From the NCBI RefSeq assembly GCF_017939705.1, contig NZ_JAGKSQ010000002.1:620001-684000 (forward strand): a DNA stretch of 64,000 bases, written 5' to 3'. Source of the stretch: Halalkalibacter suaedae. GTDB lineage: Bacteria; Bacillota; Bacilli; Bacillales; Bacillaceae_D. Shown one piece after another: positions 30,404 to 47,999 of the stretch. The notes under the pieces are model-generated. The model saw nothing but the letters and a program-made list of their open reading frames with translations, ran no database searches and had not been told where the DNA came from. A program made the position numbers and the translations under genes. Position 1 is the first letter of the stretch; each line of letters opens with the position of its first letter.

Positions 30404-30715
30404 GTCCGTTTCTCCTACTTTTAATATGGCTTAAAACTATCGTATCAATTGTGCTGGTGCATGTCACTATCGAAAACAGTATTTTCCTTTTATGTGGTTC
30501 TATTTCAAAAATAAAATTGGTTGGTCCAGCATGATCAGGACCACTTGGCTTGTAAAATGGTTACATAGGACAGTAAATTTATTAATCAGGCTAGTAAAGT
30601 GCCTGAATCGGCTAGTAAACGAATAAATTACGCCAGACACCTAAGATATTCACAAAAACGCGGGTAACAAACAAGACTTGGCTCAATTAATAAAGTAAGT
30701 ACTCTCCTCAAACGA
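30404..30715. repeat. Intergenic gap with a short cluster of AGTAAA repeats
   Basis: AGTAAA/AGTAAA/AGTAAA begin at 30572, 30593 and 30614, i.e. exactly every 21 bases (CAGTAAATTTATTAATCAGG, CTAGTAAAGTGCC, CTAGTAAACG). This is the same period and core as the large array at 45709. The rest of the gap shows nothing recognisable. Confidence 0.55.
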
Positions 30716-40901: not shown

Positions 40902-41048
40902 TAAATTACAGGTTCAACAAAGGCTTGTTTAATTCCTTCTAAAGGAGGATTATAACTCTCTAGAAAGATGAAACCTCTATAACATCATTAGAATGAATCA
41001 AGAATACGATAGATCATACATACATTAAATGTTTAAATGGAGGTATAC

Positions 41049-41882
41049 ATGATTCAACTAATGGGAAGACCGTTTCAATTAGATAATTCGACGAACATGA
41101 GCAATATGGAAAAAATGATCATACAATCTATGGATCAAGCACCCGACCTCTATTCGTATCATTCCATGGATGAGTTTTCTTTTGAAATCAACATACGCAG
41201 AAATCTGATTGAAAGTGCGATTAGCATGAGTGAAGGTCAATCACAATTTACAACCTTCGAACATACTAGTTGTAATCCTAGCTATTGGTATGTGTCGGAA
41301 AGTGGCGGGTTCTTATTAAGAAATGACGTCAGGCCATCTGATGGGATTTGGGACATTTATCGTAATAGCTCACTTTATTCCTTTGAATGTGCAACAGCTT
41401 GTGTCATTAACTTCTACCATGCCATTCTTCGTCAGATCGGTGATCACTTGTTTAATTTGATCTTTCAAAATCTCTATTTATACAGCTGGCATACCGATTC
41501 CGACCTTGAGCTGCAGACCTTTTATGGCGATTTATTGCCTGGTGATGTCGTGTATTTTAGTAATCCTGACGTTAATCCCAATACATTTTGGTATCGAGGA
41601 GAAAATGCTGTCTTTCTAGGTAATGATCTTTTTTTTGGACATGGAATTGGCATAAAGTCCGCTGAAGAAATGATCGAAATCTTAAATGAATTTAGACAAC
41701 CACAGAGTACTCAATCCAGCTATTTGACAAATTTAATTACAAGGCCATCATTTTCAAGACTTTATCAATTCCTCTCCCTGCAAAGAAATGACCGAACCTA
41801 TAAAAAACAACAGTACCTAATCCATCATAACCATTGCTCGATTTCCTATTTACAACATCTTTATTTTTTATTTAAACGATAA
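41049..41882 (+). CDS. tgl: Spore-coat protein-glutamine gamma-glutamyltransferase
   Basis: A 277-residue transglutaminase from ATG 41049, 5 bases after GGAGG; the upstream ATG 41037 has no signal. Catalytic Cys lies in LYSFECATACVINFYHA (~residue 116), and the supporting FYGDLLPGDVVYFSNPDV and WRGENAVFLG-like YRGENAVFLGNDLFFGHGIG match the Tgl family. It cross-links coat proteins such as GerQ during spore maturation, in the mother cell. A CATA-CAT-TA at 41019-41027 could be a sigma-K -10, but a matching -35 is not clear. It is ~30 residues longer than B. subtilis Tgl, at a basic His/Tyr-rich C-terminus. Confidence 0.88.
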   Translation: MIQLMGRPFQLDNSTNMSNMEKMIIQSMDQAPDLYSYHSMDEFSFEINIRRNLIESAISMSEGQSQFTTFEHTSCNPSYWYVSESGGFLLRNDVRPSDGIWDIYRNSSLYSFECATACVINFYHAILRQIGDHLFNLIFQNLYLYSWHTDSDLELQTFYGDLLPGDVVYFSNPDVNPNTFWYRGENAVFLGNDLFFGHGIGIKSAEEMIEILNEFRQPQSTQSSYLTNLITRPSFSRLYQFLSLQRNDRTYKKQQYLIHHNHCSISYLQHLYFLFKR

Positions 41883-41987
41883 AAGTGACCAAGGACACAT
41901 ACCCATTTTTATAATAGACGGGCTCAACATTAGTCTAGATGCGTAGTATATAGAGATCTTAGACTAACTCGAAAAGGAAGTGTCAAC

Positions 41988-42227
41988 ATGCATGCTAACG
42001 TTAACGCCCCCTATACAATGGGTGCAAATGTAAATGCTCCATTCACTAATATGGCTGCACCACTAACGATGGGTGCTTATGCTCCAGAACAACCATTTTA
42101 TACTGCCCCTACTTATGGATATGGAATGCCGCCTGCACCTGTAGCTCAAAACGATTCTTTCACACTTATTGTTGTTTTATTTATCCTGTTAATTATTGTT
42201 GGAGCAGCTTACCTGCCTAAATGCTAA
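41988..42227 (+). CDS. YjcZ family sporulation protein, long form
   Basis: A 79-residue protein behind AAAGGAAGTG. It has a Pro/Ala/Tyr-rich head with a duplicated MHANVNAPYTMG / ANVNAPFTNM, then the C-terminal membrane segment [19 protein letters not shown] shared with the 44-residue paralogue at 5566. The head is about twice as long as usual. It follows tgl by ~100 bases on the same strand, supporting sporulation-time expression. Confidence 0.82.
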   Translation: MHANVNAPYTMGANVNAPFTNMAAPLTMGAYAPEQPFYTAPTYGYGMPPAPVAQNDSFTLIVVLFILLIIVGAAYLPKC

Positions 42228-42232
42228 TCGAG

Positions 42233-42267
42233 AACCCCTGTACAATACATTGTACAGGGGTTTTTTT
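42233..42267 (+). terminator. Terminator after the YjcZ long-form gene
   Basis: A 14-bp near-perfect stem AACCCCTGTACAAT / ATTGTACAGGGGTT with almost no loop, then seven T. An 80-residue frame running through it is spurious. Confidence 0.88.
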
Positions 42268-42400
42268 ATGAAAATAATCTTTTACTTATTATTGCTAAGG
42301 GACAGATGCTTATATGACGATACAGCGACTTCATTTTTAGAACAGAAACCAATAGTCCTCAACTTTTCATCAAATTCGTTTAAACTATCAACCTTAACTA

Positions 42401-42645
42401 AAAAAAGAGGTTGGGACATAACTAAAGTGTCTAACTGAAATGCCGAAAAAAGCAATCACATAGCGGATGAAATATACGTAGACTCCTGCGGGATCTAAAA
42501 GCCAAGGGTGAGACCCCACAGGCGTAGACGAGGAGGCTCACCGGCTTCCCGCGGAAAGCGTAGTATATTTCAGGAGCGGTTTATGTCCGCTAACTATTGT
42601 TATTCGGATTTTCTACCAGTTAAATCACTTTTGTCCCAACCTCTT
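42401..42645 (-). repeat. Interspersed terminally inverted repeat, copy C
   Basis: An intact copy with ends AAGAGGTTGGGACA / TGTCCCAACCTCTT and the full core as in copy B (same orientation). It lies between the convergent genes at 41988 and 42664. It is a near twin of copy D and serves as its empty-site reference: CTGCGGGATCTAAAAGCC is uninterrupted here. Confidence 0.88.
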
Positions 42646-42663
42646 CTTTCACCAATTTATTTC

Positions 42664-43203
42664 TTAAACACAGCTAAAGGATTGAATTCGTTCAAGATCG
42701 ATACCGAAATAGACCCATCTAAACCCGTTCCAACGATACCCAGCAACAGAGCGGCGTCCCACGTAGGTTGGATAGAACCAGAACTGTTGAAATCTACTTA
42801 ATCTCACATACGTATATCGATATAAGCAACCTCTAATACTACCTGGATCTACAGCAAATGTACTTACATCTTGTGATTGCGATATTTGCATTGATTGTGG
42901 GATCGTTGAAGGCGGCGGGTTCATTGGTGGTCCAGCTTGCGGTCCTTGTCCAGGTGGTCCGAATGGAGGTTCTCCCTGAGGTCCTTGTCCGGGTGGTCCG
43001 AATGGAGGCCCTCCTTGCGGCCCTTGTCCAGGCGGTCCGAATGGGGGTGGTGAACTAGGTTGGCCGAATTGGCCTCCTCCTTGTGACGGAAAGAAAGGGA
43101 AAAACATTCTATCTTCATATGATACCGTGTCATATCCTTCTGGCATATAAGTAGGGACGTCCGTGAATTGGTTGTGGTAGCCGTTTGAATACATGGAATA
43201 CAC
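42664..43203 (-). CDS. Gly/Pro-rich repeat protein, probably spore surface
   Basis: A 179-residue protein behind AAAGGAGTG. It has a Tyr-rich head, then MFFPFFPSQGGGQFGQP, then three tandem copies of PPFGPPGQGPQG (the third ends QAG), a linker PPPSTIPQSMQISQ, and a conserved globular C-terminus: AVDPGSIRGCLYRYTYVRL, FWFYPTYVGRRSVAGYRWNG, WVYFGIDLERIQSFSC. I recall similar C-termini in Bacillus proteins of unknown function. The collagen-like low-complexity part and neighbouring sporulation genes suggest a coat or exosporium protein, which is inference. Confidence 0.65.
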   Translation of the reverse strand: MYSMYSNGYHNQFTDVPTYMPEGYDTVSYEDRMFFPFFPSQGGGQFGQPSSPPPFGPPGQGPQGGPPFGPPGQGPQGEPPFGPPGQGPQAGPPMNPPPSTIPQSMQISQSQDVSTFAVDPGSIRGCLYRYTYVRLSRFQQFWFYPTYVGRRSVAGYRWNGFRWVYFGIDLERIQSFSCV

Positions 43204-45107: not shown

Positions 45108-45602
45108 TTATGGCTGAATTCGAACGGGAGTGCCAATTGGAACCAATTGAGCTAACTCTTCCACATCTCGATTGTACATTCGGATACACCCTTTAGAGAC
45201 AGCTTGACCGATCGAGCTGGGATTATTCGTGCCATGAATACCATAATGTTGCTTAGACAAGCTCATCCACATTGTGCCAAAGGGGCCTCCAGGGTTCGGT
45301 GCTTTATTTATAATGATATAGGTGCCGATCGGTGTTTCATGCAGGATTCTTCCGACAGCGATTGGATATTGTTTTTGTATGACTCCATCCTTTATTAATC
45401 GTAACCATCGGTTGTTAATGGATACCTCAATCCGATACGGAATCAAACTGGATGATGGAAATCCTGGGATCACAATCGATTGACCTACAGTGATAACATT
45501 CGGGTTGATTGACGGATTAGCACGGATAATCTCATTTAACGGTTTTCGGTAATCTATTGCGATTTGATTTAGGCTTTCACCAGGTTTGACCACATGAACC
45601 AT
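45108..45602 (-). CDS. LysM and YkuD L,D-transpeptidase
   Basis: A 164-residue protein from ATG 45602, 5 bases after GGAGGTGG; a longer frame to 45635 is not supported. An N-terminal LysM motif ([16 protein letters not shown] ... VGQSIVIP, residues 3-46) binds peptidoglycan. The YkuD catalytic domain has [20 protein letters not shown] with the catalytic Cys and conserved His. No signal peptide is present, as in B. subtilis YkuD, a spore-associated cross-linker. It modifies peptidoglycan by 3-3 cross-linking. Confidence 0.88.
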
Positions 45603-45708
45603 TTTCGCCACCTCCAGAATGGGAACATAATTCATTCTATGTAGGATGTGGAAACAGATTCGTTCATTTTATTGATAAGTCGCAGTTATTTGGTGTGACA
45701 ACTTATTT

Positions 45709-46398
45709 GGACAGTAAAGTGATTTGGGAGGATAGTAAAGGGCCTTGGATAGATAGTAAAGTGCTTTGGACGGGTAGTAAACCGCTTCTTGGACAGTAAT
45801 ATCGCTTTAGTCGACAGTAAAGCCTCTCATTCGGCGAGTAAAGGGCCTTAGCCCGTTAGTAAACTGCTTCTTGGACAGTAATATCGCTTTAGTCGACAGT
45901 AAAGCCTCTCATTCGGCGAGTAAAGGACCTTAGCCGGTTAGTAAACTACTTCTTGGATAGTAATATCGCTTTAGCCGACAGTAAAGCCTCTCATTCGGCG
46001 AGTAAAGGACCTTAGCCGGTTAGTAAACCGCTTCTTGGATAGTAATATCGCTTTAGCCGACAGTAAAGCCTCTCATTCGGCGAGTAAAGGACCTTAGCCG
46101 GTTAGTAAACCGCTTCTTGGATAGTAATATCGCTTTAGCCGACAGTAAAGCCTCTCGTTCGGCGAGTAAAGGACCTTAGCCGGTTAGTAAACTACTCCTT
46201 GGCTAGTAATATCGCCTTGGCCGACAGTAAATCCTCCCGTTTGGCGAGTAAAGGGCCTTAGCCGGTTAGTAAACTACTTCTTGGATAGTAATATCGCTTT
46301 AGCCGATAGTAAAACCCTCTATTCGGCGAGTAAAGTGCCTGCTACCGATAGTAAACCCATCTAGCTGAACAAGTAACCCAATTAAGTTCACTAGTAAA
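45709..46398. repeat. 82-bp higher-order tandem repeat of ~20.5-bp AGTAAA units
   Basis: Some 34 occurrences of AGTAA lie every 19-22 bases. From ~45783 they group into four-unit blocks: GTTAGTAAACnGCTTCTTG, GATAGTAATATCGCTTTAGC, GACAGTAAAGCCTCTCATTC, GGCGAGTAAAGGACCTTAGC. The unit GTTAGTAAAC starts at 45855, 45937, 46019, 46101, 46183 and 46265, so the block period is exactly 82 bases. Blocks diverge more towards both ends. There are no open frames, no spacers of CRISPR type and no constant-length unique parts. It fills the 1-kb gap between the convergent-free neighbours 45602 and 46632. Confidence 0.9.
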
Positions 46399-46477: not shown

Positions 46478-46512
46478 AAAAAAAGAAGGAGCTTTTCAAG
46501 AAAGCTCCTTCT
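46478..46512 (-). terminator. Terminator of the alditol oxidase gene
   Basis: On the minus strand the stem AGAAGGAGCTTT / AAAGCTCCTTCT (12 bp, 5-base loop) is followed by TTTTTT. Confidence 0.85.
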
Positions 46513-46631
46513 TCTACTATAATTTCACTTAACATTAGCATAACTGCCCCAAAAATTATGATTCAGACACCATCTCGTTCAAAACCCAAACAATCCGCAC
46601 ATCACCACGATCAACTAATAACGCTCCTAGC

Positions 46632-47900
46632 CTACTCCTCACCAAATATATACTTCTTCAGAAACTCATTCTGAAACTTCCCCGTTGGGTCATACTGCTT
46701 CAGAAGCTTTTGAAAATCTGGTAGCTTTTCATAGAGTGATTGGAGCTTGTCTGGTGCCATCGTAAATAGCTTACCCCAGTGAGGTCGTGCATCGAATTGG
46801 GCTAATCGCTCCTCAATCTTTGGTAATACCTTCTGAACCTCTTCCCAGTTATCTTTCCACGTAAAGTGAAAGCCAACCGATTCTCTTTTATAATACGGAC
46901 TCATCCAAAGCTCATCCTTAGCAATCGTACGTATTTCCGATATTTGCAGAAGCGGTGCAATTTCCTCTTTCAATGGGGCGATCGCTTGTAATGCGGTGTA
47001 GGCACGCTCCCTCGCCATGATGTACTCCGTTTGCAGCTCCTTCCCACTACTAGGTAGAAAGTCCATTTTGAAATGAGGTAATCGATCATGCCATTCACCT
47101 GCTACTCCCATTTGTTCTGTGCAATTCTCGACGGCTTGCCCTGGTACAGGGTGGACATTAGCTACAGTCGCAGTTGCTTCAAAAAAATCAGGTGCAATTG
47201 AACAATCGTTATCAACAACAACTTGCTGCTTGAGCCATACTTGGTTAAAGCTTTCGTTCTTCCAATCTGTAAAAAGACTGACACTATAGGCACTTGACGT
47301 AATAGCATCCAATTCATTTTCTAATTGAGACATCGATAGATTCTCATATACGAGCTGCCTAATCTGAAAGGATGGGATCACATCTAATGTCAATTGGGTA
47401 ACGACCCCCAACCCTCCTAACCCTACTGAAACACCGTCCATAATCTCAGGATCTTCATCACGAGAGAAGCTAACCACATCGCCCTCAGCCGTTACGACTT
47501 CCATAGTACGAACTGATGTAGCAAGGCTCTGATTACCATCACCAGATCCGTGTGTTGCAGTTGCACAGGCACCTGCTACAGAAATATGCGGAAGCGAAGC
47601 CAAATTTGGCAATGCAAGCCCTTGAAGATGAAGATACTTACTCAAATCTCCATACGTGATTCCACCTTCAACCGTAACCGTTTGCTTGTCACGGTCTAAG
47701 CTCACAACCCGGTTTAAACGTTCTAAGGAGATATGATCCTCATTCGTATCGGCAATACTATTAAAAGAATGCCGAGTTCCGACTACCTTTACACTGCTAC
47801 TCGAAGCAACTATCTTTTGCACTTCTTCTATCGTTTCAGGCACATGCAGCCTTTCTGCATGATACTGATAATTCCCAGCCCAGTTACGGTGATCTTTCAT
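46632..47900 (-). CDS. FAD-linked alditol oxidase-like enzyme
   Basis: A 422-residue vanillyl-alcohol-oxidase-fold enzyme from ATG 47900, 9 bases after AGGAG; a TTG at 47909 lies inside that site. VKVVGTRHSFNSIADT holds the His (44) that in alditol/xylitol oxidases is covalently bound to FAD. GGITYGDLSKYLHLQGLALPNLASLPHISVAGACATATHGSG is the FAD-binding half; the C-terminal EFRPHWGKLF-like FDARPHWGKLF matches the sugar-alcohol oxidase group. Expected reaction: oxidation of a polyol or lactone by O2, giving H2O2. Being beside GH27 and a galactoside transporter suggests a sugar-derived alditol. A decayed second copy is at 40690. Confidence 0.82.
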   Translation of the reverse strand: MKDHRNWAGNYQYHAERLHVPETIEEVQKIVASSSSVKVVGTRHSFNSIADTNEDHISLERLNRVVSLDRDKQTVTVEGGITYGDLSKYLHLQGLALPNLASLPHISVAGACATATHGSGDGNQSLATSVRTMEVVTAEGDVVSFSRDEDPEIMDGVSVGLGGLGVVTQLTLDVIPSFQIRQLVYENLSMSQLENELDAITSSAYSVSLFTDWKNESFNQVWLKQQVVVDNDCSIAPDFFEATATVANVHPVPGQAVENCTEQMGVAGEWHDRLPHFKMDFLPSSGKELQTEYIMARERAYTALQAIAPLKEEIAPLLQISEIRTIAKDELWMSPYYKRESVGFHFTWKDNWEEVQKVLPKIEERLAQFDARPHWGKLFTMAPDKLQSLYEKLPDFQKLLKQYDPTGKFQNEFLKKYIFGEE

Positions 47901-47999
47901 AGTCTCCAACTCCTCTATCTAAAGATGACACTACTAACATTATAAAATAGTTTCAACGAATGCGTGTCCTTTTCCTTTATATTACTCATAATTACAAAT

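Follow-up and report, generated by a model that had tools for sequence, protein, structure and literature searches.

Phased 21-bp minisatellite arrays recur, mainly at gene 3' ends, across genomes of Bacillus relatives

The repeat array studied here, in a 64,000-nt stretch of Halalkalibacter suaedae DNA (the window, within which positions are counted), belongs to a dispersed gene-end minisatellite family. The best explanation of the family, held tentatively and with a probability of roughly 0.4, is that each array would be a row of sites for a putative sequence-specific DNA-binding protein on one face of the helix, forming an oriented barrier where a transcription unit ends. We infer the protein, its binding and the effect of that binding from sequence comparison.

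Table 1. Features of the window that bear on the two arrays.
Feature	Position	Strand	Remark
Second array, three cores at 21-bp spacing, between two minus-strand ORFs	30572..30618	+	
LysM + YkuD L,D-transpeptidase gene, 5'-side neighbour	45108..45635	-	Gene start 77 bp from first core
Tandem array with 34 AGTAA cores, spaced mainly by 21 bp	45713..46397	+	
82-bp higher-order block (21+21+21+19), 6.9 copies	45771..46335	+	Tandem Repeats Finder
Oxidase-gene intrinsic terminator, pointing at the array's 3' end	46481..46515	-	
FAD-binding / lactone oxidase family gene, 3'-side neighbour	46632..47909	-	

The first-pass annotation of the window reported about 34 AGTAA cores at 19-22 spacing, and exactly 34 were counted on the forward strand, the first starting at 45713 and the last at 46393. 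In 200 shuffles of the window in two-base blocks, the longest AGTAA chain at this spacing was 3, reached in a single shuffle. The core spacings 21, 21, 21 and 19, which sum to 82, recur along the array and are followed by 21, 22 and 21 at its 3' edge; together with the period of 82 returned by Tandem Repeats Finder (93% matches), they confirm the exact 82-bp block. The unit GTTAGTAAAC begins at 45855, 45937, 46019, 46101, 46183 and 46265, as had been listed. Blocks starting at 45855, 45937, 46019 and 46101 are 95-99% alike, those at 45773, 46183 and 46265 show 79-95% likeness to other blocks, and the best unit lag of the array is 4 (0.79). The mean of 20.5 bp, previously taken as the key figure, gives way to the actual spacings of 21 (three in four) and 19 (one in four), the family rule being 21; the 19-bp units allow phase drift within the array. 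No Rfam family matched at gathering score within the window. A CRISPR array, already considered unlikely for lack of unique spacers, was rejected, as the spacers are 7-9 nt long and recur within arrays, in contrast to the unique spacers of ~25-40 bp in a CRISPR.

Four AGTAAA at exactly 21 bp were matched in 42 of 397 genomes of the order and in 25 of 135 genera, a raw count of pattern matches that includes at least one genome (G041) with the repeat inside an open frame. Up to 187 matches were found per genome, the backwards pattern was matched in 4 of the 397 genomes, and no match to the forward pattern was found in the other 355, i.e. in most lineages of the order. The carriers include Neobacillus, Fictibacillus, Peribacillus, Kurthia sibirica, Lederbergia, Ectobacillus, Halalkalibacter, Alteribacillus and Salibacterium. 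Motif and spacing therefore recur in relatives, rather than the motif occurring only here and being randomly spaced elsewhere, and the view of the array as a lone element was not upheld, since it belongs to a dispersed family found mostly at gene 3' ends. The loci were found by patterns fixing AGTAA(A) and the 21-bp spacing, and GG as well in one locus set, and the conservation of AGTAA(A), of GG in that set and of part of the spacing is therefore by construction; the remaining motif bases were left free by these patterns. Fourteen loci of other phyla or classes (L103, L107, L110, L111, L123, L127, L128, L131, L138, L153-L156 and L160) were removed before counting; removal of outside loci reduced the set from 174 to 159 arrays, and removal of identical starts reduced it to 149. 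Arrays from one genome or from congeners are non-independent, and P values are thus nominal. For the complete genome G382, ~30 arrays were estimated from two arrays of at least two units in a 360-kb sample.

Several related observations were made alongside. Outside the order, loci of Hormoscilla (L111, L123 and L155), Bacteroidetes and Treponema match the pattern GGNNAGTAAA, many of them overlapping ORFs, and were not counted; a viral collection yielded 25 stretches with the four-core pattern. When known arrays were masked in the intergenic DNA of 144 loci and the window, lag 21 was the commonest self-match among lags 8-63 (0.2867), with lags 9, 12 and 42 reaching 0.2843 and most others 0.272-0.281. 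As lag 21 still leads after masking, further, more degenerate arrays probably exist in intergenic DNA. In Fictibacillus loci L093 and L096, a second series with the core AATCTGTCCGATT, ~21 bp apart, lies on the other strand 3' of the arrays and precedes what looks like the terminator of the convergent gene; it looks like a related motif class in opposite orientation. A series of ~20-21 bp with the core ATCGCTCATAAATTT, unlike AGTAAA, follows the pheT stop codon at L365 (G239), and palindrome-like ATAAGCGGAAAATTTCCG sequences, perhaps another dispersed family, recur after the array at L137 (Lederbergia panacisoli).

In the 149 arrays and that of the window, the 21-nt unit consists of 12-14 nt of clade-specific motif, with AGTAAA at its end, and 7-9 nearly free bases. 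The units of individual clades are AAGTGGACAGTAAA in Fictibacillus, AATTCACGAGTAAA in the group g71, AACCGGTAAGTAAA in Kurthia, ACGGCCAGTAAA in Lederbergia and GAACGGGAGTAAA in genome G081, and the motif in these consensus units is non-palindromic. Within one genome the motif is common to many sites and the spacers are not; in the window array and the rest of the window's genome, the bases before AGTAAA are less uniform. Spacing was 21 in 1197 of 1389 intervals (20 commonest interval values), a tally biased by search patterns that demand several 21-bp spacings and by chaining that allowed 19-23 bp or two or three times that. Higher-order periods vary: among 52 arrays of at least 10 cores, the best unit lag was 2 in 16, 6 in 9, 1 in 8, 3 in 7, and 5 and 4 in 6 each. 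The helical phasing proposed for the window array is supported by the period of 21, which is two turns, and by a 10.5-bp alternation of A+T and G+C, the second harmonic being the largest in the mean profile (0.128 vs 0.061, 0.026, 0.073 and 0.046).

The arrays mostly follow genes on their own strand. Among 148 intergenic arrays, gene and array share a strand in 115 of 141 cases on the 5' side and in 83 of 140 on the 3' side, with ORFs called by length only (at least 90-100 aa), so that small genes and RNA genes are missed. Where both neighbours were called (n = 133), both were co-oriented with the array in 67 cases, convergent in 43, divergent in 12 and both opposite in 11. In the convergent pairs, the array lies closer to its co-oriented gene in 34 of 43. 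By a home-made rule (a hairpin of -9 kcal/mol or better and a T run), a terminator on the array strand lies within 150 nt on the 5' side in 70 of 148 arrays and in 20 on the 3' side, compared with 29 and 21 for the opposite strand and 3 and 1 for shuffled flanks. For co-oriented arrays 41-200 nt from the stop codon, the terminator is on the 5' side, between stop codon and array, in 53 of 70; for gaps of up to 40 nt, it precedes the array in 0 of 24 and follows it in 8 of 24. The 5' genes are varied (spoIIP, tatC, argS, rpsA, aspS, pheT, thrS, wecB, prfB, agmatinase and others among 30 proteins), and no common function was seen in these 30 of 109 proteins, 4 of which had no NCBIfam match at 1e-10.

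Both arrays of the window depart from this rule, being opposed in orientation to both neighbours. The pattern AGTAA-N16-AGTAA-N16-AGTAA has 26 matches in the window's genome, which fall at both window sites and within contigs C7, C11 and C27, and the backwards pattern has 1. Seven array sites were counted by eye, of which about four appear, again by eye, to follow a co-oriented gene or rRNA: one on C7 (L007), which comes after a sequence read as a 5S rRNA gene and its terminator, C11:664259, and two on C27. As judged in the same way, the other three, including both window arrays, do not follow a co-oriented gene, and hence the orientation rule is weaker in this genome. Two genomes of the same genus (G003 and G008) have relatives of the oxidase gene with 60-61% identity and no array of at least three cores in 6.5-7.0 kb, a comparison in which only the oxidase gene aligned. 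Neither the window array nor a 301-bp stretch of L226 matched any plasmid by blastn, whose low-complexity filter may hide weak matches. Elsewhere in the window (41037-43203), a gene for a spore-type protein-glutamine gamma-glutamyltransferase adjoins an ORF whose 13-residue repeats are Gly/Pro/Gln-rich and whose product may be a substrate for cross-linking.

Orthologous arrays keep their position while the copy number changes fast. Eleven of 12 fetched loci of G101 match one of 15 fetched array loci of G058, with copy numbers such as 22/12, 20/6 and 21/6, and orthologous arrays in g71 have 71/15, 59/23 and 20/5 cores. This supports the growth by unequal exchange proposed for the window array, or slippage. 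Each unit was paired with its nearest match, pairs with more than 6 mismatches being dropped and the zero differences at AGTAA being by construction; on this basis, g71 units show 13-24% difference across the seven spacer positions; at motif positions the difference is 0-9%, with a single position at 19%. In the group g30, the first six positions differ by 19-33% and the rest by 0-7%, except four positions at 27%, 26%, 13% and, at the C/T before AGTAAA, 57%. The pheT end was read in 30 of the 36 g71 genomes: 18 have at least 3 cores in series, 3 have one or two, and 9, which are the most distant of the 30, have no series, some of them carrying scattered AGTAA. The arrays there range from 1 to 36 cores, and in the 18 genomes with a series the first core lies 54-79 nt past the last sense codon; the array occupies the gap between the pheT terminator and, in our reading, the terminator of a convergent gene. 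Because 3 of the 21 species in the array-bearing clade have only 1-2 cores there, no individual site seems indispensable.

The group g71 is probably Peribacillus, because proteins of Peribacillus sp. SI8-4 closely match its proteins (two 5' proteins are 82% and 87% identical to those at array-bearing gene ends). In one clade of this group, CACGAGTAAA is replaced by GGCGAGTAAA throughout the genome, the CACG/GGCG pairs per genome being 283/0 and 345/0 vs 0/90 and 0/88. Pairs of CACGAGTAAA at 21 bp occur in 18 of the 36 genomes (1 to 345 per genome) and pairs of GGCGAGTAAA in 4 (G427, 90; G439, 88; G435, 2; G429, 1), both types being found only in G429, with one of each; the matches in G427 were grouped, by our own grouping, into 25 places. 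In a tree of a pheT segment, the clade of G427, G439, G428 and G429 (100/99) is joined by G426 as sister genome (100/99), and all of these nest within the CACG group; G426 carries 8 CACG pairs, and mixed GCG units stand at its pheT end. The pheT array has kept its position through the switch. In G437, G428 and G429, with 2, 0 and 1 CACG pairs and 0, 0 and 1 GGCG pairs, almost no arrays are left in the whole genome, as though a factor needed to maintain them had disappeared; close relatives of G437 have about 80-280 pairs. Since spacers differ between sites, copying of whole units between sites fails to explain the switch, and a specificity acting in trans would explain it. A conserved half that is common across a genome and swapped wholesale in one branch suggests that some factor reads the arrays, in line with the sequence-reading factor envisaged in the first-pass annotation.

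The motif constraint, free spacer, two-turn pitch, orientation relative to genes and switch together fit a row of protein sites. Each 21-bp unit would offer a non-palindromic recognition motif of 12-14 nt and a nearly free spacer, and molecules of the putative protein would line the array in a row along one helix face. The bound array would then be an oriented barrier at the end of the transcription unit, which may stop or insulate RNA polymerase running on beyond the intrinsic terminator, or hold the torsional stress collecting there. Copies would be gained and lost locally by unequal exchange or slippage, with the motif held to what the protein reads. Counted in favour of the barrier are the motif common to sites, the divergence of spacers, the switch, the near loss, the 10.5-bp alternation, the co-orientation and the siting at terminators. 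Counted against it are the shrinkage at the pheT end, the opposed window arrays (11 of 133 are alike), the rule being followed at only about four of seven sites in the window's genome, the 24 co-oriented arrays with gaps of up to 40 nt and no preceding terminator, the phase drift by 19-bp units, the absence of the pattern from 355 of 397 genomes and the partial confounding of leading-strand orientation with gene orientation. A broader proposal, that the arrays cap transcription units beyond intrinsic terminators as a new class of gene-end element, with a fast-evolving, lineage-specific protein that co-evolves and shifts in specificity across a whole genome, is more doubtful.

The strongest rival, in itself unlikely, is a selfish or mutational repeat, in which an enzyme (a single-strand nickase or recombinase) would read the motif and duplicate units; motif units would multiply, spacers drift, and gene ends be where the least harm is done. 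It ranks first among the rivals because arrays come and go without visible cost, changing fast in copy number and nearly vanishing between close species, and because an amplifying enzyme accounts for the motif switch no less well than a binding protein; local higher-order blocks also favour it. A further point is strand bias in G382, in which dnaA lies at position 337 and the skew changes between the 2.7- and 3.0-Mb samples: of 24 sites, grouped from 100 of 104 matches, 18 read with the leading strand and 5 with the lagging one, the remaining site being ambiguous, as expected if the enzyme acts on one exposed strand. The bias is partly confounded with gene orientation; 17 of the 18 leading arrays examined follow their 5' gene, as do 3 of the 5 lagging ones. 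Orientation from replication alone was rejected, since in convergent pairs the array lies closer to the co-oriented gene (34 of 43), and this siting, like the 10.5-bp alternation, is left unexplained by a selfish repeat alone.

An element acting at the RNA level, with array RNA in 3' UTRs or read-through transcripts binding an RNA-binding protein or serving as a processing site, is improbable. The sense orientation of the arrays, the position of some between stop codon and terminator (8 of 24 at gaps of up to 40 nt) and the folding of the sense RNA of the window array, which is no better than that of shuffles (19 of 20 fold at least as well), are compatible with it; however, the terminator precedes the array in 53 of 70 at gaps of 41-200 nt, and RNA has no need of exact two-turn spacing. 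A Rho loading site was rejected separately, the sense strand having no C-over-G excess (A.384, G.241, T.206, C.163); the same base counts give C over G on antisense RNA.

We also give little credence to a topological element, which would require no dedicated protein, the phased alternation of A+T and G+C letting gyrase or a general nucleoid protein wrap the DNA where positive supercoils collect. The 10.5-bp harmonic is the largest in 11 of 14 groups and convergent pairs outnumber divergent ones (43 vs 12), but the groups are related, single-group permutation P runs from <0.001 to 0.26, and a clade-specific exact motif with a genome-wide four-base switch is not accounted for. A translated heptad repeat (xSKxxxx and similar), suggested by the period of 21 being a multiple of three and by one match inside a 181-aa open frame (L036 in G041), is very improbable and was rejected, because stops in the two informative forward frames of 776 units are at the level expected from column shuffling (124 vs 126.2 and 205 vs 202.9), with no open frame protected from them, reverse frames deviate both ways (75 vs 100.6, 125 vs 74.5 and 258 vs 228.8), 100 of 1309 spacings are not multiples of three, and the 19-bp units of the window break the frame; the absence of coding claimed for the window array is thereby supported.

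Like bacterial VNTRs or minisatellites, the arrays are local tandem copies with fast change in copy number, the comparison here being between species. We know of no ordinary VNTR that shares one motif across unrelated sites with unshared spacers, or that switches genome-wide. The Sal-box/TTF-I terminators of eukaryotic rDNA are likewise oriented arrays of protein sites, located downstream of a gene, where they stop the polymerase; they differ in being confined to rDNA and in having a cognate protein, that of the present arrays being only putative. For an iteron- or centromere-type array, bound by its cognate protein, the signs are indirect: the motif common to sites, its constraint relative to the spacers, and the switch. 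REP/BIME elements (BIME-2) of enterobacteria and pseudomonads are, according to PMC1525189, likewise dispersed, extragenic, polymorphic and found at gene ends, often between convergent genes, with REPs serving as binding sites for DNA gyrase, IHF and DNA polymerase I. Their very name marks REPs as palindromic, whereas the present arrays are direct, oriented, phased and apparently non-palindromic, and give no sign of the hairpin: the consensus motif is non-palindromic and the sense strand of the window array, the only one folded, folds no better than shuffles. The TAACTGA repeats of Beggiatoaceae and cyanobacteria, as described in PMC4679880, resemble the arrays as many intergenic sets of short direct repeats in distant lineages whose adjacent genes have no common function. 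They are heptamers lying mostly just upstream of start codons, in contrast to units of 21 bp mostly downstream of genes, and the arrays were not assigned to this type, from which they differ in motif, length and siting. A search of one open-access library, with most subscription journals outside its scope, gave no description of such arrays in Bacillus relatives.

If a protein reads the arrays, Bacillus relatives would have machinery at gene ends beyond hairpin and Rho termination, and natural specificity variants within one genus would make this machinery directly testable. If an enzyme amplifies them instead, they would be a clean natural case of a sequence-specific selfish minisatellite. 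Under either reading, the arrays are highly variable markers in these genera.
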